Of a stretch of 15,396 bases of DNA, positions 1-10,607 are shown piece by piece. The translations under genes and the position numbers were made by a program. How positions within the stretch are numbered: position 1 is the first letter of the stretch; each line of letters opens with the position of its first letter. This stretch comes from Gemmatimonadota bacterium (GTDB lineage Bacteria; Latescibacterota; UBA2968; UBA8231), in the NCBI GenBank assembly GCA_002712305.1, contig PATE01000134.1, forward strand, positions 1-15,396, read 5' to 3'. The notes below the pieces were generated by a model that was not told the DNA's origin, did no database searches, and saw nothing but the letters and a program-made list of their open reading frames with translations.

Positions 1-881
1 CCAACAACCCATCGTACGGGCCGTTCAACGCGACGTTTTGGAATTCCGTCGTTCTCTACAATCCCTTTACGGTACGTGTTCATCCAGATGGTCAGCCCCA
101 TCTGATCTCGGACCCGATCACGTTCTATCTGGCCTCCTCGGAGGGCGGATCGCTCGCTCCTGCACAGATCCTGATCGTGACAAAGTCGATCGCCACGGAG
201 ATCGCGACCCTGGCGGCGGGCAGCATCCTGGCGCTTGTGGACCTGACCGTCTGGATCGATCAACATCTTTCGGCTGCGGACGTGACGGCTTGGGCGCTGC
301 TGCTGGCGATCGTGGGAGCTCTGGCTTGGCCTCGTCTGGCGCGATTCGGAGAGCGTCGTGTAAGGGCCTGGCTCTTGGCGTTGGTGTATATCGGCGTAGT
401 CTACGCGACGATTCCGATTTTTCCCCAGCTCTGGCATGGTCTTCGTATACATACAGGGGATTCGATCCGTCACACCGGGTCCGTGATCATTGGCGCAATC
501 GCCATCTGGTCCGCCTGGCGTCTGCACAAGCGAGTTCAGGGGAAGCAAGTCGGACCGTATCTGCTCTACGCAATTCTACTGGTTGCCTATATCGCCCTCT
601 TGATCCGCTTTGGGCAGTTTCCGGCAGAGCGACTGCACCTGCTCGAATACGGATTCATGGGAGTGCTCCTGCTGCGTGCGAGGACGATCGATCGTTCCCC
701 TCGCGTTCAAGACTTCGTGATCTGCTGGGGACTCACGGTTCTGATTGGATGCGGAGACGAAACGATCCAGTGGGTTCTGCCACAGCGTTATTTTGAACTC
801 AAGGACGTCGGACTGAATGCCGTCTCCGGCGCCCTTGGACTTTGCCTATCACGCCTGGTCACTGGGGGACAGCAGCAATGA
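1..881 (+). CDS. VanZ-family membrane protein, 5' end missing
   Basis: The frame is open from the left edge (first full codon at position 3) to TGA at 879-881, so the true start lies outside the window. A GTG at 177 is only an internal candidate, because the 58 codons before it read as sensible protein. The first ~58 residues are soluble-looking and rich in aromatic residues and prolines; I do not recognise them. The rest is hydrophobic with several predicted membrane helices. The C-terminal third carries the VanZ-like pattern: ER-x-H-x-x-EYG, then DE-x-x-QW-x-LP-x-R, then DV-x-x-N-x-x-SGALG. VanZ-family proteins are multi-pass membrane proteins whose biochemical role is mostly unknown; they are named after a teicoplanin-resistance protein. 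The stop overlaps the start of the next gene (ATGA), which suggests coupled translation with the O-antigen-ligase homologue. The family call is fairly firm; the function is not. Confidence 0.75.
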   Translation, partial: NNPSYGPFNATFWNSVVLYNPFTVRVHPDGQPHLISDPITFYLASSEGGSLAPAQILIVTKSIATEIATLAAGSILALVDLTVWIDQHLSAADVTAWALLLAIVGALAWPRLARFGERRVRAWLLALVYIGVVYATIPIFPQLWHGLRIHTGDSIRHTGSVIIGAIAIWSAWRLHKRVQGKQVGPYLLYAILLVAYIALLIRFGQFPAERLHLLEYGFMGVLLLRARTIDRSPRVQDFVICWGLTVLIGCGDETIQWVLPQRYFELKDVGLNAVSGALGLCLSRLVTGGQQQ

Positions 882-3109
882 GAATCGACTCAGATTCGAT
901 GCGTCGCGCTCTAGAGATGGCCCTCGAGGTTGGCACGGGCCTCACGCTGGTCACGGTGACTCTGCTGTATACGCCTGTATTCAGCGACATGTTCGAAGCC
1001 AAGGGCCTGGTCGCGTCTGGACTGTGTTTGTGGCTGGCACTGATCTGGGTGCTGCGGTTCAGATCGCAGATCACATTGGTCTGGGCACCGGTGATTTACG
1101 TCCCTCTGTCCCTGTTTCTGATGCAGGCCTTGATCAGCGCCGGTTTCTCGCGCAACCCGGCTCACTCTATCGAGGATTGGCTGGGCTATTTCGCCTGGGG
1201 CACGCTCTTCGTCACCGGCGCATGTTTGGCCAGCAATCTGTCCCGCTTGAACCGGATTCTGCGCACGATTCAGTTGACCAGCCTCGTGGTAGCCGCGGTG
1301 GGCATTCTTCAATATGCCGGCCACGACCCGCTCGGTCTGCCTGCAAGACATGCGAATCTCCGTTTGGCCGTGTCGACCCTCGGCAATACGAATTTCGTCG
1401 CCCACTACCTCGACCAGATCCTGCCCCTTTCCTTCGTCCTGCTGCTGTCGGGAGCACTTCGTCCGGTGGACCGTGGACTCGCGCTGCTTTGTGTCCTGGC
1501 GGGTGGCATTCTCCTGTTCCTCACCAACAGTTTGGGCGGCTGGCTCAGCATCGCCGCAGCGGCGTTCGTCCTGGCTGCGTCTTTCGTCTCTCTGCCGCGC
1601 GTCTGGCTACGCCGTGTAGGTATTGGAATTCTGTGCGCCGGACTGCTCATTCCCGTGGCTGCGGTCATATTGCGTTCTGTCCCACTCGACGGCAACCGCT
1701 CGGCCTCGGACGCGGCTTCTGAGGCGATCTCTGTCATTCAGACCGACGTGATTCATGCATTCGAACGACCGGACTACAGCACGGCCATGCGGATTCTGAT
1801 CTGGAAGGACGGCTGGCGCCTGGCGAAAGACCAGGGCTGGGTGGGGGTCGGCCCGGGAGAGTGGGGGACTGAACTGCCAGCCTACCGAACCAGCACGAGC
1901 CACAGAGACTGGCACGGCCTGATTTACGCTCGACAGAACCAGGCCTACTACGCCCATCAAGACTATCTCCAGGAATGGGGCGAGACGGGGCTACTCGGTG
2001 CCCTACTTCTCCTTTCACTGCTCGCCGCCGCAGCGACACTGTGCTGGCGTGTGGCGCACGCGGTCCCAGAGATTGAATCCGATCCACCGCTGAGGCGGGC
2101 TCTGGGTCTGGCGGGTTTGGGCGCTGTTGTGGCTGCGGGTGCCCACGCGTTGATCAGCTTCAACCTGCGAGACCCTGTGGCTATGCCCCACCTGTGGTTG
2201 ATCGTCGGCCTGGCCGCCGGCATGGGATTGCCGACACGGCAGGTCGCCCGATCAACGGTGGCCCGCTACGTGACCATACTCGCCGTGGTGGGGATGACCG
2301 CCGCCGGCACGTGGTTGACCAGTCGAGCGCTGATCTCTGATTCGTATCTGGCTCGCGGGTTGAACCATGTCTACGAACACCAGGGGAATCGGGCCATTCT
2401 GGCAATGCGCCAAGCCAACCAGTGGCGCGATTACGATGCCCAGACGCAGCATTGGCTGGGCAAGGTGTCCCTTGAGATGGGACGTGTCGAGGAATCGATC
2501 GAGCCGCTGGAGCGCAGTCTGACCCTGAGCCCCTTCAGCGCCACAGCGGCGCGGCTGCTCGCGCGAGCTTCGATCAAAGTCGGAAACCCGACCCGGGCAA
2601 TGGAGGCGGCCAAAATGGCAATTGCCGTCGATCCGCTTACCCCTGACAACTATCAGTTGCTTGCCATCGCGCAGCGAAGAATGGGAGACTCCGATGCTGC
2701 CGCCGCGACGTGGCGGCAAGCCCTTTCCTTCCACCCGGAGGATCCGAAGTTGTTGGCCGCCCTGGCCCAGGATCTCCACCTGGCCGGAAAGGCAGAGGAC
2801 GCCATTGCCGTCCTCGAAAAGGCGTTGCAGATCGCCCCCCGGGATGGCGTGAGTCATGGAAACCTCGGCGTCTATCTGCTCGGAGAGGGGAGGTACAAGG
2901 AGGCGGAGTCCCATTTCAGGCAGGCTGCCCAATCGGATCAAGAAACCAGCGCCGCCGCTTGGTCCGGCAATCTGATCCACGTGTTGATTCTGCAGGAGCG
3001 CTGGTCCGATGCGCTCGAAGAAGCGAAGGAGGCGATCAATTCTCATCCCGAGGATGAGCGGCTGCGCGAGCTCCTTCGTACTTTGGAGGAGAGACAGGAG
3101 ATCCAATGA
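878..3109 (+). CDS. O-antigen ligase/polymerase-type membrane protein with C-terminal TPR array
   Basis: 743 residues from ATG 878, which overlaps the upstream stop and follows a GGGGGAC ribosome-binding stretch; a TTG at 842 in the same frame is less likely. The N-terminal ~500 residues contain about ten hydrophobic segments. A large loop carries the Wzy_C/WaaL-type signature H-x-DYLQEWGETGLLG at about residues 358-373, preceded by a WVGVGPGEW motif. Residues ~520-740 form roughly six TPR units with the usual W/G/A and P positions. Members of this family transfer or polymerise polyprenyl-linked glycans at the outer face of the inner membrane; some attach glycans to proteins. Substrate cannot be told here. 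The TPR part probably lies in the periplasm and may bind a partner or acceptor (inference). ATGA overlap with the following glycosyltransferase suggests a common pathway. A pilin or flagellin O-oligosaccharyltransferase is an alternative. Confidence 0.85.
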   Translation: MRIDSDSMRRALEMALEVGTGLTLVTVTLLYTPVFSDMFEAKGLVASGLCLWLALIWVLRFRSQITLVWAPVIYVPLSLFLMQALISAGFSRNPAHSIEDWLGYFAWGTLFVTGACLASNLSRLNRILRTIQLTSLVVAAVGILQYAGHDPLGLPARHANLRLAVSTLGNTNFVAHYLDQILPLSFVLLLSGALRPVDRGLALLCVLAGGILLFLTNSLGGWLSIAAAAFVLAASFVSLPRVWLRRVGIGILCAGLLIPVAAVILRSVPLDGNRSASDAASEAISVIQTDVIHAFERPDYSTAMRILIWKDGWRLAKDQGWVGVGPGEWGTELPAYRTSTSHRDWHGLIYARQNQAYYAHQDYLQEWGETGLLGALLLLSLLAAAATLCWRVAHAVPEIESDPPLRRALGLAGLGAVVAAGAHALISFNLRDPVAMPHLWLIVGLAAGMGLPTRQVARSTVARYVTILAVVGMTAAGTWLTSRALISDSYLARGLNHVYEHQGNRAILAMRQANQWRDYDAQTQHWLGKVSLEMGRVEESIEPLERSLTLSPFSATAARLLARASIKVGNPTRAMEAAKMAIAVDPLTPDNYQLLAIAQRRMGDSDAAAATWRQALSFHPEDPKLLAALAQDLHLAGKAEDAIAVLEKALQIAPRDGVSHGNLGVYLLGEGRYKEAESHFRQAAQSDQETSAAAWSGNLIHVLILQERWSDALEEAKEAINSHPEDERLRELLRTLEERQEIQ

Positions 3110-4071
3110 GCGAAGTCGACAACGAGCCGTCTGTAGAACTGAGTATCGTGATCCCCGTGTTTAACGAAGAGGAGAGTCTGACGCCTCTTTGTGAGAAACT
3201 CGACGCCGTTCTGACCGATCTTGGCCTTACTCACGAGGTCATCTTCATCGATGACGGTAGCACGGACTCCTCCTATGACGTCCTTGAGCGTTTGGGGGCC
3301 GACTACGCGTGGCTTCGGGCTGTGCGTTTTCGTCGCAACTACCGAAAGGCTGCCGGTCTGGCGACAGGGTTCAAGCAGGCGAGAGGCGAGTTCATCGTCA
3401 CGATGGACGCGGATCTGCAGGATGACCCGGAAGAGATCCATGGTCTGCTGCAGCAGCTGGAGCAAGAGAGCCTCGACCTGGTCTCAGGATGGAAGAAAAA
3501 GAGGCACGATCCACTATCGAAGACGCTGCCTTCGAAGGTCTTCAATCTGGTGACCTCCGTCGTTTCGGGGATCCGCCTCCACGATTTCAATTGTGGACTC
3601 AAGATCTATCGACGCGAAGTCACCGAAGACGCCCTTCCGTATCTGTATGGAGAGCTCTATCGGTTTCTGCCCGCCATCGCCCACTGGTCCGGGTATCGTG
3701 TGGGCGAGCGCCCGGTTACGCATCATGCTCGCCAATTTGGCGTGTCGAAGTTTGGCGCCAAACGTTTGCTCAATGGCTTCCTCGATCTGCTGTCGATCAC
3801 CTTCGTCGTCCGCTTCATGACGACACCCATGCACATTTTTGGCACTCTCGGACTGCTCAGCACCATGGCGGGTAGCGGAATCGGGGCCTACATCAGCTGG
3901 CTTTGGTGGCAGTCCGGCACGATTCAGAATCGGCATCCACTGATGATGCTTGGTGTCCTTCTCATCATCGTGGGTATCCAATTCTTCTCCACCGGCCTGC
4001 TGGGAGATATGCTCGCCTCCATGCATCAGCGGGGCGGTCGAACCCCTCGAATCACCAGCCGTCTCCGATAA
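3106..4071 (+). CDS. Family 2 glycosyltransferase, polyprenyl-phosphate sugar transferase type
   Basis: 321 residues; ATG 3106 overlaps the previous stop and has AGGAG five bases upstream. The GT-A fold motifs are clear: SIVIPVFNEEES near residues 13-25, IDDGSTD at 48-54, and the metal-binding D-A-D (101-103) within TMDADLQDDPEE. The region FNCGLKIYRR (161-170) and H-x-x-RQ-x-G-x-SKFG (206-217) matches the DPM1/ArnC/GtrB-like group. Two hydrophobic segments (about 242-266 and 279-300) follow, as in bacterial members that load a sugar from a nucleotide donor onto undecaprenyl phosphate at the cytoplasmic face. The product would be a lipid-linked sugar for a periplasmic transferase, which fits its place directly after the O-antigen-ligase homologue. 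The exact sugar is not predictable. Length is typical. It is the last gene before the flagellar regulatory gap. Confidence 0.9.
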   Translation: MSEVDNEPSVELSIVIPVFNEEESLTPLCEKLDAVLTDLGLTHEVIFIDDGSTDSSYDVLERLGADYAWLRAVRFRRNYRKAAGLATGFKQARGEFIVTMDADLQDDPEEIHGLLQQLEQESLDLVSGWKKKRHDPLSKTLPSKVFNLVTSVVSGIRLHDFNCGLKIYRREVTEDALPYLYGELYRFLPAIAHWSGYRVGERPVTHHARQFGVSKFGAKRLLNGFLDLLSITFVVRFMTTPMHIFGTLGLLSTMAGSGIGAYISWLWWQSGTIQNRHPLMMLGVLLIIVGIQFFSTGLLGDMLASMHQRGGRTPRITSRLR

Positions 4072-4292: not shown

Positions 4293-4308
4293 TGGCATGG
4301 GGATTGCT
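4293..4308 (+). promoter_or_regulatory. Sigma-54 (RpoN) promoter of the flagellar operon
   Basis: TGGCATGGGGATTGCT matches the sigma-54 consensus TGGCAYR-N4-TTGCW. The GG (4294-4295) and GC (4306-4307) dinucleotides have the required spacing. Transcription would begin near 4318-4320, leaving a leader of about 67 bases before the flgB start at 4386. Many bacteria use RpoN with an NtrC-type activator for rod and hook genes (known for FlrC, FlgR and similar). All following genes run in the same direction with small gaps, so this is the likely main operon promoter. Confidence 0.8.
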
Positions 4309-4385: not shown

Positions 4386-4799
4386 GTGTTTCTGGACAAG
4401 GTCATCTTCAACAAGACCAAGATCCCCGTTTTGACGGCCGTCCTAGATGTGACGCAGCTACGCCAGCGTGTCATTGCCAACAACATCGCCAATGTCTCGA
4501 CAAAGGGATACCGACGTCAGGAACTGAGGTTCCAGGAGTATCTGGACTCCTTCGTTCGGCAGCCGCCCGTCGAGGGGCAGCGTACGGATCCGAAACACAT
4601 GACCGTGCCATCACCGACGTTCAGTCCGGAAGTCTTCGAACCCGAGACAGGTCTCAACGACACGGGCCTCAACAACGTAGACATCGACATGGAAATGGCA
4701 GACCTGGCAGAGAATCATCTGTTCTTCAACGTCGGTACTCGCCTGCTCTCCGGTGGATTCGACGGCCTCAAGAAAGCCATCAACGGCCGCCCGGCCTAA
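4386..4799 (+). CDS. flgB: Flagellar proximal rod protein FlgB
   Basis: 137 residues from GTG 4386. The same frame stays open upstream to an ATG at 4287, but that lies across the sigma-54 promoter and its residues do not look like FlgB; a GTG at 4377 is the only other reasonable start. The rod/hook N-terminal signature is plain: LRQRVIANNIANVSTKGYRR at about residues 25-44. The C-terminus has the amphipathic heptad segment of axial proteins, N-x-VDID-x-EMADLAEN. FlgB is the first rod subunit built on the MS-ring and export gate and is secreted by the flagellar export apparatus without a cleaved signal. The middle is short and variable as usual. It is first in the operon, ten bases before flgC. 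Confidence 0.95.
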   Translation: MFLDKVIFNKTKIPVLTAVLDVTQLRQRVIANNIANVSTKGYRRQELRFQEYLDSFVRQPPVEGQRTDPKHMTVPSPTFSPEVFEPETGLNDTGLNNVDIDMEMADLAENHLFFNVGTRLLSGGFDGLKKAINGRPA

Positions 4800-6343: not shown

Positions 6344-6673
6344 ATGCCCGTTACAGCCGTCCATGACTTTACAGGACGAGGAGAGACGACCTCCTCGGCG
6401 ATTCGTGTGCAGCCACAAGCCGAATTCGTCGACCCAACTCGCGAAGCGGATCGCGGCAGCTTTTCAGATCTGGTCAAGACCTTCGCAACCGACGTAAACG
6501 ATCTGCAGTTCCGTGCAGGCGACGCGATCGACAGTCTCGTAACTGGTGAGGCCGCCGATGTGCATCAGGTGATGGTCGCCGTCGAACAGGCTGGCATTGC
6601 GATGGATCTCATGCTGGAAATTCGCAATCGTGTCCTTGAAGGATATCAAGACCTGATTCGAATGCAGGTATAA
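6344..6673 (+). CDS. fliE: Flagellar MS-ring/rod junction protein FliE
   Basis: 109 residues; ATG 6344 with an AGGAGA-type site around 6329-6334. The C-terminal half is typical FliE: DVHQVMVAVEQAGIAMDLM at about 72-90, then LEIRNRVLEGYQDLIRMQV to the end. FliE joins the MS-ring and export gate to the first rod proteins and is itself exported. Length matches the family (~104). The N-terminal ~35 residues are variable and probably disordered. The gene follows the lytic transglycosylase by 13 bases and is followed by a 122-base gap before fliF. Confidence 0.95.
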   Translation: MPVTAVHDFTGRGETTSSAIRVQPQAEFVDPTREADRGSFSDLVKTFATDVNDLQFRAGDAIDSLVTGEAADVHQVMVAVEQAGIAMDLMLEIRNRVLEGYQDLIRMQV

Positions 6674-6795: not shown

Positions 6796-8310
6796 ATGAA
6801 TCTACCAGATCAACTAACCGGTGTGACTGACCGCCCCCGCGAATGGTGGGAAGAGGCGGCTCAACCGCAAAAGTTCGGCGCCATGGGTGGGGCGGCCGTT
6901 CTCGTGATCGCCCTCGTCGTCGGCGTCATGTGGATGACAGGTGGAGACGAAGACTGGGATCCCGCCATCCTCTATGCTGACCTCGAGTATGCTGAAGCTG
7001 CTGAGATCAGTACCCGCCTGGATGCGGTGGGCATGCCTTTCAAGCTGACAAACGATGCAAGCACCATCGTCGTGCCCGACGACAAGGTCCGCGAGATGAG
7101 ACTCATGCTGGCCGCCGAGGGCTTTCCCCGTTCTGGCCGTATAGGATACGAAATCTTCGATGATTCCCAGTTGGCCATGACGGACTTCTTGCAGGACGTC
7201 AATCTCGTCCGAGCTCTACAGGGTGAACTGCAGGAGACCCTGGGAGGTATCGAGGGAGTCAGGGCGGCTCGTGTACACCTCGTGATTCCCGAGGAGAGTC
7301 TGTTCACGGAAGAACAGAATCCGGTGACGGCAGCCGTGAATCTCTCTTTTGCAGGGACTACGACGCTGAAGCCGTCGCAGGTCGATGCCATCGTCAACCT
7401 GGTCAGCGCCAGTGTAGAGGGTCTGGACAACAGCCAGATCGTAATCGTCGACCAGGAGGGAAACATGCTCACCGAAGAGCATGATCCTCTTGCACAAGCG
7501 GCCAACAAGCAGTTTCGAATGCAGCAGAAGGTTGAATTAGTGATGGAGAAAAAAGTCCAGTCACTGATGGACGAGGTCATCGGTAAGGGACGATCGAAGG
7601 TCCGGATCAACGTGGCTCTCGACTTCAGCCAGAAGCACACCGATGAGGTCTTGTTCGATCCACCATCCGGATCACAGATCGTCATCAGCGAAGAGACGAA
7701 CGAACGTCAATCGGCAGAGCAGGGAAGTGAAGAAAACGCGGTTCGCAACTATGAAGTGAATCGCACGGTGCGCAACATCGTCGGTTCGGTCGGCGCCATC
7801 GCGCGGATGTCGATGGCCCTCACTGTTGACCAGACGAAGGTCATTATCGGCGAAGACGGGCGTGCGGTCGAACAGATCCGTACGCCGGAGGAAATCCAAC
7901 GACTGGCCGACCTGGCTCGTCAGGCTGTTGGCTTTGACGCTGAGCGCGGTGACGAGTTCACGGTGTTCGCCATGCCCTTCGACAAGTCCCAGGAGATCCA
8001 GGCACGTAACAAGGTGGTGGCCGAGGAGCGCAAGGAATTCTGGACCGGTATTGCCATCAATATTGCCAAGGTCCTGGGTATTCTCGCAGCGCTGATCACT
8101 CTCCGATTCATCATTCAGGCCATCGGCCGTGGCGTGGGTGTCGAAGAGGACATCGAGGTTCTTGGCGAAGTTGCTGGCGATGTGGAGGAAGAAGATTTCG
8201 AGCGTCCGGAGACGCCACACGATATCATTTTGGGTCGTGTCCAGCAGATGGTGCGGGAGCGCCCGGAAGATGCATCGAAGCTGATTAAAACGATGCTGGT
8301 GGAGGAATAG
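6796..8310 (+). CDS. fliF: Flagellar MS-ring protein FliF
   Basis: 504 residues from ATG 6796. One membrane helix lies near 28-48 and a second near 415-440, bracketing the large periplasmic part. Diagnostic stretches include LYADLEYAEAAEIS, AAEGFPRSGRIGYEIFDDS, VRAARVHLVIPEESLFTEE and NYEVNRTVRNIVGSVGAIARMS. FliF forms the ring in the inner membrane that holds the export gate and the rotor. The cytoplasmic tail is acidic (DVEEEDFE) and ends in a normal FliG-binding helix, ILGRVQQMVRERPEDASKLI. The protein is slightly shorter than enteric FliF (~550), mainly through a short loop before NYEVN. The FliG-binding tail is intact, yet no fliG follows, as it does in nearly all comparable operons. Confidence 0.97.
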   Translation: MNLPDQLTGVTDRPREWWEEAAQPQKFGAMGGAAVLVIALVVGVMWMTGGDEDWDPAILYADLEYAEAAEISTRLDAVGMPFKLTNDASTIVVPDDKVREMRLMLAAEGFPRSGRIGYEIFDDSQLAMTDFLQDVNLVRALQGELQETLGGIEGVRAARVHLVIPEESLFTEEQNPVTAAVNLSFAGTTTLKPSQVDAIVNLVSASVEGLDNSQIVIVDQEGNMLTEEHDPLAQAANKQFRMQQKVELVMEKKVQSLMDEVIGKGRSKVRINVALDFSQKHTDEVLFDPPSGSQIVISEETNERQSAEQGSEENAVRNYEVNRTVRNIVGSVGAIARMSMALTVDQTKVIIGEDGRAVEQIRTPEEIQRLADLARQAVGFDAERGDEFTVFAMPFDKSQEIQARNKVVAEERKEFWTGIAINIAKVLGILAALITLRFIIQAIGRGVGVEEDIEVLGEVAGDVEEEDFERPETPHDIILGRVQQMVRERPEDASKLIKTMLVEE

Positions 8311-8318
8311 ACCTAATC

Positions 8319-8384
8319 ATGAGCATCGCGTGTCTTGGTGAGTGTCTCACGGCCATTTCGGTCGGTGGAGGATTCTGTGTCTAA
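8319..8384 (+). other. 21-codon open frame at the expected fliG position
   Basis: ATG 8319 follows GGAGGA (8301-8306) by 12 bases and reads 21 residues to TAA 8382-8384, overlapping the fliH start. The peptide has two Cys and a Gly triplet near its end and does not resemble the FliG N-terminus. It could be a leader peptide that couples fliF to fliH translation, the scar of a lost fliG, or chance. Evidence for expression is only the start codon and ribosome-binding site. Confidence 0.2.
8367..8372 (+). promoter_or_regulatory. Ribosome-binding site that sets the fliH start
   Basis: GGAGGA lies four bases before GTG 8377. This favours GTG 8377 over the upstream in-frame TTG 8335 and GTG 8338, which lack such a site and would add residues foreign to FliH. 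Confidence 0.65.
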
Positions 8385-9279
8385 AGTGATTCGCACAGGC
8401 CAGGTGGCTTCTGGCTCCGGTATGGTCACCCTTGGTCGAGCCGAGGCCGGCCTCTATTACGAGCCCGAGAAAGAGACGACCGATCGAAACCCTCTCGATC
8501 TTCCAGCGATGCTCGAGGCGCGGATCAATTCCCTGCGCTCCGAACTCGACCAGCAGTGGGAGGGTAAACTGCGCCAGGAGCACGAAACCACACGAACAGC
8601 TGGTGAAAAGCAGCTGCAGGACGCAACCCAGCAGCACCAGCAGGAACTCGAACGAGTCCGGCAGGAACGTTATGACGAGGGCCACCGTGACGGTGTCGAG
8701 TCAAAAGAGGCTGAGGCGCGTGAGGCCGTCGTACGAATGGCGTCTCTCCACGACGCCCTCAAGGCGGAGAGATCGCAGGTTCTGCTCGACGCCGAGAGTG
8801 TCGTGGTGGATCTCGCTATGTCGATGGCACGACGCGTTGTTCGTGTGGAACCGGCAGCTGATGCTCGAGTTGTTGCCCGCAGTGCCCGGGAGGCGCTTCG
8901 CCACCTGAGCGATCGAAGCAATCTTCTACTGAAAGTCCACCCTGACGATCTCGGTATCGCTCGTCGATTCGCCGCTGCATGGGTGGATCGTGTCGACAAG
9001 GATGCCATTCTTCGGGTTCAGGTGTCGGGTCATGTCGATCGCGGAGGTTGCATGATCGAGGGACCAGAGGAGAACGTGGATGCCCGCCTTTCGCCGCAGC
9101 TAGAGACGCTGTATGAAGCACTCCGCGAGCAGGTCATGGAACTGCACGCCGACGGAAGCGAGTCACCCGAGTCGCAATCCGATGAAGATAACGTCGCCGC
9201 CACAGTCTCTGCTCCTAGCGAGGGAGATCCAGATGCGGCTGATCAGGGGACGATCGAAGATTCTGGAGAGCCGGTATGA
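8377..9279 (+). CDS. fliH: Flagellar export ATPase regulator FliH
   Basis: 300 residues from GTG 8377. The N-terminal ~45 residues carry the part expected to contact the export gate/C-ring. Residues ~45-130 are a long charged helix rich in Glu, Gln and Arg (coiled coil), with a glycine-spaced YDEGHRDGV near 99-107 resembling the FliH GxxxG repeat. The C-terminal domain (about 135-255) contains LAMSMARRVVRVEP, LLLKVHPDDL and HVDRGGCMIEGPEENVDARL, conserved in FliH/SctL. FliH dimers bind FliI and place the ATPase at the export gate. An acidic, Ser-rich tail of ~45 residues follows and is unusual for the family. The stop overlaps fliI (ATGA). Confidence 0.93.
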   Translation: MSKVIRTGQVASGSGMVTLGRAEAGLYYEPEKETTDRNPLDLPAMLEARINSLRSELDQQWEGKLRQEHETTRTAGEKQLQDATQQHQQELERVRQERYDEGHRDGVESKEAEAREAVVRMASLHDALKAERSQVLLDAESVVVDLAMSMARRVVRVEPAADARVVARSAREALRHLSDRSNLLLKVHPDDLGIARRFAAAWVDRVDKDAILRVQVSGHVDRGGCMIEGPEENVDARLSPQLETLYEALREQVMELHADGSESPESQSDEDNVAATVSAPSEGDPDAADQGTIEDSGEPV

Positions 9280-10607
9280 ACGCGGCCAACTTCACAAGAA
9301 CCATCGAAACAACCGATCCCATGAAGCGGTACGGGAAGGTGACGCAGATCGTGGGGCTCATCATCGAGTCGATCGGACCTGCGGACGTGGCCATGGGGGA
9401 GATCTGCCTCATCGGTGATCCACATGCCCACCACATCGAGGCCGAGGTGATCGGATTTCGTGGCGAGCGGGTTCTGTTGATGCCCTTCGGAGAGATCGAG
9501 GGGATTCGCCCGGACACCGACGTATTCCCGACTCGATCCAGTCTGCAAGTTCCCGTGGGTGAGCCGCTGAAAGGGCGCATCATCGACGGACTTGGCAATG
9601 CCATCGATGGAGAGGGTCCGATCCACTCACTCGAAAGACGCCGCGTTCATTCGGCGGCGCCTGACCCACTGGCTCGTCGCCGGGTGAACGACCCGATCGG
9701 TACAGGCGTTCGCGCGATCGACGGGATGTCCAGCATCGGTATAGGACAACGTCTCGGGATCTTTTCGGGAAGTGGCGTGGGCAAGAGCACACTGTTGGGG
9801 ATGATATCTCGCAATTCGGAGGCCGATGTCAACGTCATCGCCCTGGTCGGTGAACGCGGCAAGGAAGTGCTCGACTTTATCGAGGACAGTCTCGGTCCTC
9901 AAGGGTTGCAGCGCTCCGTCGTCATCGTTGCCACGTCGGAACAACCCGCACTGATTCGTCTCAAAGCGGCTTTTACGGCCACGACGATCGCAGAATACTT
10001 TCGTGAGCAGGGACAGAATGTCGTGCTCATGATGGATTCGATCACACGCGTTGCCATGGCCCAACGTGAGATCGGACTGGCCGCACGCGAACCCCCCACC
10101 ACGAAGGGATACACGCCTTCCGTGTTTGCGCTACTGCCGCGCCTGCTTGAGCGTGCGGGCAGTACATCCCAGGGGAGTATCACCGGCCTCTATACGGTTC
10201 TGGTCGAAGGAGATGAGATGGATGACCCGATCGCCGATTCGGTCCGGGCAATCCTCGACGGCCACATCGTTCTCTCGCGGCGCCTCGCCTCCCGTGGCCA
10301 CTATCCACCCATCGATGTCATGGAGTCCATCAGTCGATCGATGAAAGACGTGACCAGTGACACACACTGGGAACGGGCGATGGAGATCAAAGGGCTTATG
10401 GCGGCGTACGCAGAGGCGGAGGATCTCGTCAACATTGGTGCCTATGCCCGCGGCAGCAATCCGCGGATCGACCGAGCACTGGAATACATCGAGCCCATCG
10501 AACAGTTCCTGACACAGGCCGGCTCGGAGACGGGCAGTTTCGACCATCACGTGCAGCGACTCATGGGCATTCTGGCACCCCCCGCACCCGTCGAACCGGA
10601 AGCGTAG
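9276..10607 (+). CDS. fliI: Flagellum-specific export ATPase FliI
   Basis: 443 residues; ATG 9276 overlaps the fliH stop, with GGAGAG just upstream. The Walker A motif GSGVGKST is at 165-172 and the Walker B strand VVLMMDS ends near 255. The catalytic Glu is in VGERGKEV (about Glu193). The block AMAQREIGLAAREPPTTKGY followed by TPSVFALLPRLLERAG is diagnostic of FliI/SctN. FliI forms a hexamer under the export gate and hydrolyses ATP to help unload and unfold export substrates. Length is that of the family (~440-457). Its product should work with FliH before it and FliJ after it. Confidence 0.97.
   Translation: MNAANFTRTIETTDPMKRYGKVTQIVGLIIESIGPADVAMGEICLIGDPHAHHIEAEVIGFRGERVLLMPFGEIEGIRPDTDVFPTRSSLQVPVGEPLKGRIIDGLGNAIDGEGPIHSLERRRVHSAAPDPLARRRVNDPIGTGVRAIDGMSSIGIGQRLGIFSGSGVGKSTLLGMISRNSEADVNVIALVGERGKEVLDFIEDSLGPQGLQRSVVIVATSEQPALIRLKAAFTATTIAEYFREQGQNVVLMMDSITRVAMAQREIGLAAREPPTTKGYTPSVFALLPRLLERAGSTSQGSITGLYTVLVEGDEMDDPIADSVRAILDGHIVLSRRLASRGHYPPIDVMESISRSMKDVTSDTHWERAMEIKGLMAAYAEAEDLVNIGAYARGSNPRIDRALEYIEPIEQFLTQAGSETGSFDHHVQRLMGILAPPAPVEPEA

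Follow-up and report, generated by a model that had tools for sequence, protein, structure and literature searches.

The flagellar operon described here has no fliG. Very probably, the gene has moved out of the operon and multiplied elsewhere in the genome. The FliG type encoded on contig C91 is the probable main partner of FliF and, less certainly, the type encoded on contig C83 is a later or alternative one. That fliG was relocated, and is neither lost nor hidden by an artefact, we hold with high confidence. In the classical order, fliG stands directly behind fliF. The window (the whole stretch of DNA analyzed, 15,396 nucleotides, bases 1-15396 of contig C134) belongs to a 4.77 Mb genome, for which copy numbers are uncertain given that the assembly is 91% complete and in 146 contigs.

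The operon in the window runs flgB, flgC, a lytic-transglycosylase-like gene, fliE, fliF, fliH, fliI, fliJ, fliK, flgD, flgE (flgB, flgC, the transglycosylase-like gene, and flgE are named from sequence pattern). The following features are all on the forward strand. A sigma54-type promoter element, TGGCATGGGGATTGCT (4293..4308), is the window's single exact match to the consensus and lies ahead of flgB, with which the fliF-bearing operon begins. The rod protein gene flgB (4386..4799) likely begins at the GTG at 4386 and reads VFLDKVIFNKTKIPVLTAVLDVTQLRQRVIANNIANVST, as in relatives. The operon also includes fliE (6344..6673; Pfam FliE, E 2.1e-22) and the MS-ring protein gene fliF (6796..8310), which scores above the equivalog cut-off of TIGR00206 (302.8 versus 129.75 bits). 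The spacer at 8311..8376 occupies the place that fliG has in other families of the phylum. After it come fliH (8377..9279; Pfam FliH, 63.4 bits), with a GTG start, a GGAGGA ribosome site at 8367, and a protein that begins VSKVIRTGQV, and the export ATPase gene fliI (9276..10607; Pfam ATP-synt_ab and T3SS_ATPase_C). The fliH start is kept in relatives as (M/V)SK(V/I)IRT.

The last ~36 residues of FliF are a putative FliG-binding tail. This tail is conserved among relatives and has a weak match (36 residues, E 0.058) to the FliF fragment in the solved FliF-FliG complex 5WUJ. The co-folding of FliG_N with the FliF tail has been reviewed (PMC7355467). Directly upstream of flgB, at 842-4071, are genes for a membrane and TPR protein and a family-2 glycosyltransferase (assigned by sequence pattern only), and the same-genus relative has this gene order in the same place.

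The first-pass annotation had placed no fliG between fliF and fliH, and this reading stands: the fliF stop at 8310 and the fliH GTG at 8377 are exactly 66 bases apart. We found no FliG likeness across the 66-base gap by blastx (best E 1.9), and no terminator or sigma70 promoter was predicted in it. As also annotated, there is a 21-codon open frame (8319..8384; ATG 8319, TAA 8384), and GGAGGA occurs at 8301-8306 as well as at fliH's own ribosome site. The suggestion that the frame is a functional leader peptide or a remnant of fliG draws on the GGAGGA 12 bases upstream of it and on its overlap with the fliH start. It is unsupported by the comparisons: shuffling the gap gives an ATG frame that starts in it and spans 21 codons or more in 26% of cases (70% if GTG and TTG starts are counted), the frame has no FliG likeness, and its sequence is not conserved in relatives, several of which have fliF and fliH just 3-6 bases apart. 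We consider a leader or remnant very improbable and judge this to be a chance frame.

The junction was compared across the class and the phylum. Seven genomes from other families of the phylum were read (G040, G043, G044, G045, G046, G047, and G049), and in all of them the FliF match is followed ~1.0-1.4 kb downstream, on the same contig and strand, by a FliG_C match. In the window's class, 16 genomes have fliF, and none has fliG beside it. The sequence after fliF could be read in 15 of these (the sixteenth, G005, ends at a contig edge); fliG is next in none, and fliH starts 3-116 bases after fliF in 13, the 66 bases of the window included. In G003, a fliH-like start lies 49 bases past the fliF stop, and in G017 no next gene was called after fliF. 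In a maximum-likelihood tree (quick method, single test), the class FliGs cluster apart from the fliF-adjacent FliGs (support 99).

These comparisons bear on whether the assembler dropped fliG from a true fliF-fliG-fliH arrangement, as the first-pass annotation had allowed. The assembly is fragmented, and several flagellar genes are truly missing beyond the end of the window's contig, which would fit such an error. The same-genus relative has the same junction, however, and it recurs in other genera and families of the class, where 3-116 bases separate fliF from fliH, while the other families of the phylum have fliF-fliG. An identical gap recurring in separate assemblies is not credible, so a gap at 8311-8376 was rejected and a dropped fliG is hardly conceivable. 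Given that fliG is beside fliF in none of the 16 class genomes, a single departure from the operon, close to the base of the class, is probable.

The relocated gene is represented several times over. The window's genome has ten FliG_C matches, and contigs C142, C91, C83, and C37 each encode a full-length FliG with the N, M, and C domains in order (PF14842, PF14841, PF01706). At its end, contig C81 has a second copy of the C142 gene with about 96% DNA identity, whose N and C matches share a single open frame; the true number of these near-identical copies is uncertain, as both are at contig ends. The four FliG kinds score 350.5, 334.3, 330.6, and 279.7 bits versus a cut-off of 226.7 bits for the TIGR00207 fliG equivalog. 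The EHPQ motif is kept in the C142, C81, C91, C83, and C37 FliGs. We take the torque residues of E. coli FliG to be K264, R281, D288, D289, and R297; the residues at these torque-helix positions are K R E E R in C142, C81, C91, and C83, and K R E D R in C37. The proposal that fliG has moved elsewhere is thus met by four canonical kinds on other contigs.

Full-length MotA and the FliM and FliN of the main operon were not found in the window's genome. The absence of these genes, like that of a FliG beside FliF, could be taken to mean that FliG function was lost and that the axis is exported without normal rotation. Contig C134 ends just after flgE, however, and contig C66 ends inside fliP. The flagellar locus read in the same-genus relative is complete but for fliG, and it has motA, motB, fliL, fliM, fliN, and fliO between flgE and fliP (named by sequence pattern, with MotA and FliM/FliN identified by Pfam). 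Because the relative has these genes at the place where the contigs end, the missing stator and FliM/FliN genes are an assembly gap between C134 and C66, not a loss. The genome has one FliF gene, one FlhA, RpoN, FliA next to flhA, and eight Flagellin_N matches. We rejected FliG loss given the four full-length kinds with intact torque residues and scores above the TIGR00207 cut-off, and an axis that is exported and does not rotate normally is extremely unlikely.

A few features of these contigs and of the flagellins are recorded here. At the end of C66 (L190:8360-9226), the FliP frame is joined to sequence absent from the FliP of the relative and similar to a DsbA-type fold; it may be an assembly chimaera. 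Contig C69 (28458-29394; L191:6444-7398) has two adjacent MotA-like frames of 139 and 172 residues, without most of the cytoplasmic part of MotA. Among the window's genome and 11 relatives, there are two to nine Flagellin_N matches per genome (loci L192-L221), and some flagellin genes have sigma54-type upstream sites, others sigma28-type.

The FliG types differ in their promoters and neighborhoods. Upstream of flgB, nine further genomes of the family have the motif TGGCAY-N5-TTGCT. Upstream of C91-type fliG, all ten copies examined, across genera, have TGGYCC-N5-TTGC, a sigma54-type motif with GG and GC elements at sigma54 spacing. In nine of the copies, it precedes the conserved start by about 180-236 bases; the tenth is that of G017. 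The motif occurs 18 times in the 2.57 million strand-bases fetched (0.002 expected per 300 bases), and most of the 18 matches precede C91-type fliG, overlapping loci counted. The C83-type genes have sigma28-like sites 66-152 bases upstream (TAAAG and GCCGATAA at flagellin spacing), scored with a sigma28 model built from the lineage's own flagellin promoters; p is 0.0002 in one genus and 0.005-0.015 in three others. The site is weak upstream of the C83 gene of the window's genome (p 0.07 in 200 bases) and absent upstream of some recent C83-type copies in genus g4. Neighbor genes are kept across several genera for the C91-type and C37-type subfamilies.

The C91-type FliG is the probable partner of the window's FliF, the likeliest of the types, because its gene and the window operon are both behind sigma54-type promoters; promoter likeness and synteny are the evidence for this choice. 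With less certainty, we predict that the C83-type FliG is a later or alternative subunit. The reverse assignment, with the C83 type as the main partner and the C91 type as accessory, is possible but doubtful. In several genera, C83-type sequences show little divergence; they have the same intact functional residues, and this is the only FliG type found in G003, an 86% complete genome in which the C91 type was not found. FliG is needed early in flagellar assembly. Against the reverse assignment, the C83-type promoter in related genera is sigma28-like (late) while the fliF operon has a sigma54 site, and the genes around the C83 type are kept less well from genus to genus than those around the C91 type.

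We therefore prefer the C91 type as the main partner and propose the following course of events. Near the ancestor of the class, fliG would have left the operon flgB-flgC-fliE-fliF-(fliG)-fliH-fliI, and fliF would have closed onto fliH. The gene would have survived as a stand-alone fliG and then duplicated. With C91-type fliG and the window operon behind sigma54-type promoters, the early rotor parts may still be made together. The C83-type FliG could be a later or alternative rotor subunit able to enter the same C ring, a less certain step. If fliG has moved and multiplied in this way, rotation is expected to be normal.

FliG occurs in the class in several other forms. Relatives have operons that encode FliN, FliG, and FliM without FliF: G001 C8 and C75 (L092 and L094), G007 C63 (L112), G005 C272 (L109), G008 C68 (L116), and G011 C258 (L119); in one, a response regulator follows. 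Six operon FliGs could be aligned over the C domain. In five of them (G001 C8, G001 C75, G005, G008, and G011), the residue at E. coli position 281 is no longer positively charged; that of G007 has a lysine there. On C15 (L089:4423-7197), the same-genus relative (G001) has one open frame of 924 residues in which an entire FliG, its torque charges intact, is linked to FliM and two FliMN_C domains, a C-ring protein in a single chain. On contig C3 of the window's genome (33857-33952; L018), the beginning of fliN and the final codons of fliG meet at five bases, GAACT, and about 3.0 kb is missing versus the relative. The relative has the 924-residue module at this place, and the junction resembles a deletion scar. 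The relative also encodes a MotA-FliG_C fusion of 377 residues on C97 (L097:6878-8011), with a 200-residue counterpart on C71 of the window's genome (L017:8922-9524) that is without the middle of MotA.

Further FliG domains are found in other settings. In G035, a FliG is fused behind an FGE-sulfatase domain (C58; L127:3518-5602), and in G011, a FliG_C is within a propeller-SpoIIE sensor protein (C122; L120:4044-8165). A FliG_N-only protein of ~180 residues is next to mutS in G001 (C50; L142:6974-7513) and in the window's genome (C4:35488-35691), and most FliG-bearing genomes of the class have one FliG_N-only match. FliG_C also occurs on other N-terminal parts, or alone (96 residues), on C8, C102, and C68 of the window's genome and on C95 and C61 of G001 (L085 and L095).

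FliG has radiated in the class, into FliF-less operons, a single-chain fusion, and a MotA fusion whose functions we infer from sequence, and this radiation is a more surprising result than the missing fliG. Tentatively, FliG might have become a toolkit family here: a single MS ring might take alternative FliGs by stage (sigma54 early, sigma28 late), with the C ring remodelled by subunit exchange, while the FliF-less operons with lost torque charges and the single-chain and MotA fusions would act outside or alongside the classical motor; we regard this as somewhat unlikely.

The window has the same genes in the same order as fliF-fliG-fliH-fliI-fliJ-fliK of E. coli K-12 (NC_000913.3) but for fliG, which is between fliF and fliH in E. 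coli and is not there in the window or anywhere in the class. In alphaproteobacterial flagellar clusters, fliG is near fliM/fliN rather than after fliF. Those clusters likewise have no fliG between fliF and fliH, but the gene is still in the flagellar cluster, whereas here it is on other contigs. Among the lineages described, we are aware of none with fliG scattered and multiplied to this extent alongside a single FliF.

More than one FliG is also found in Borrelia burgdorferi, where FliG2 is needed for flagellar synthesis and FliG1, asymmetrically placed in the cell, for torque (PMC7225975). In contrast, there are four full-length kinds here, none in the fliF operon, as well as fused and shortened forms, and their roles are predicted from promoters. 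Species that have two flagellar systems are also described as carrying more than one fliG (PMC4642947); those duplicates are tied to multiple systems, while the window's genome has a single FliF gene and a single FlhA. For Campylobacter jejuni, the opening of one abstract describes C-ring core components that have expanded and diversified, a likeness to the present case, and mentions no relocated or multiplied fliG (PMC6946799). Our searches of the open-licence literature turned up no account of fliG being moved and multiplied in this lineage, and one may exist elsewhere.

The lineage appears to have broken the link between fliF and fliG, multiplied FliG for one FliF, and restored co-expression via a shared sigma factor, and so offers natural variants of the C ring. 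As the copies have known promoters and intact or altered torque charges, comparing them would make FliG stoichiometry, subunit exchange, and stage-specific rotor parts testable.
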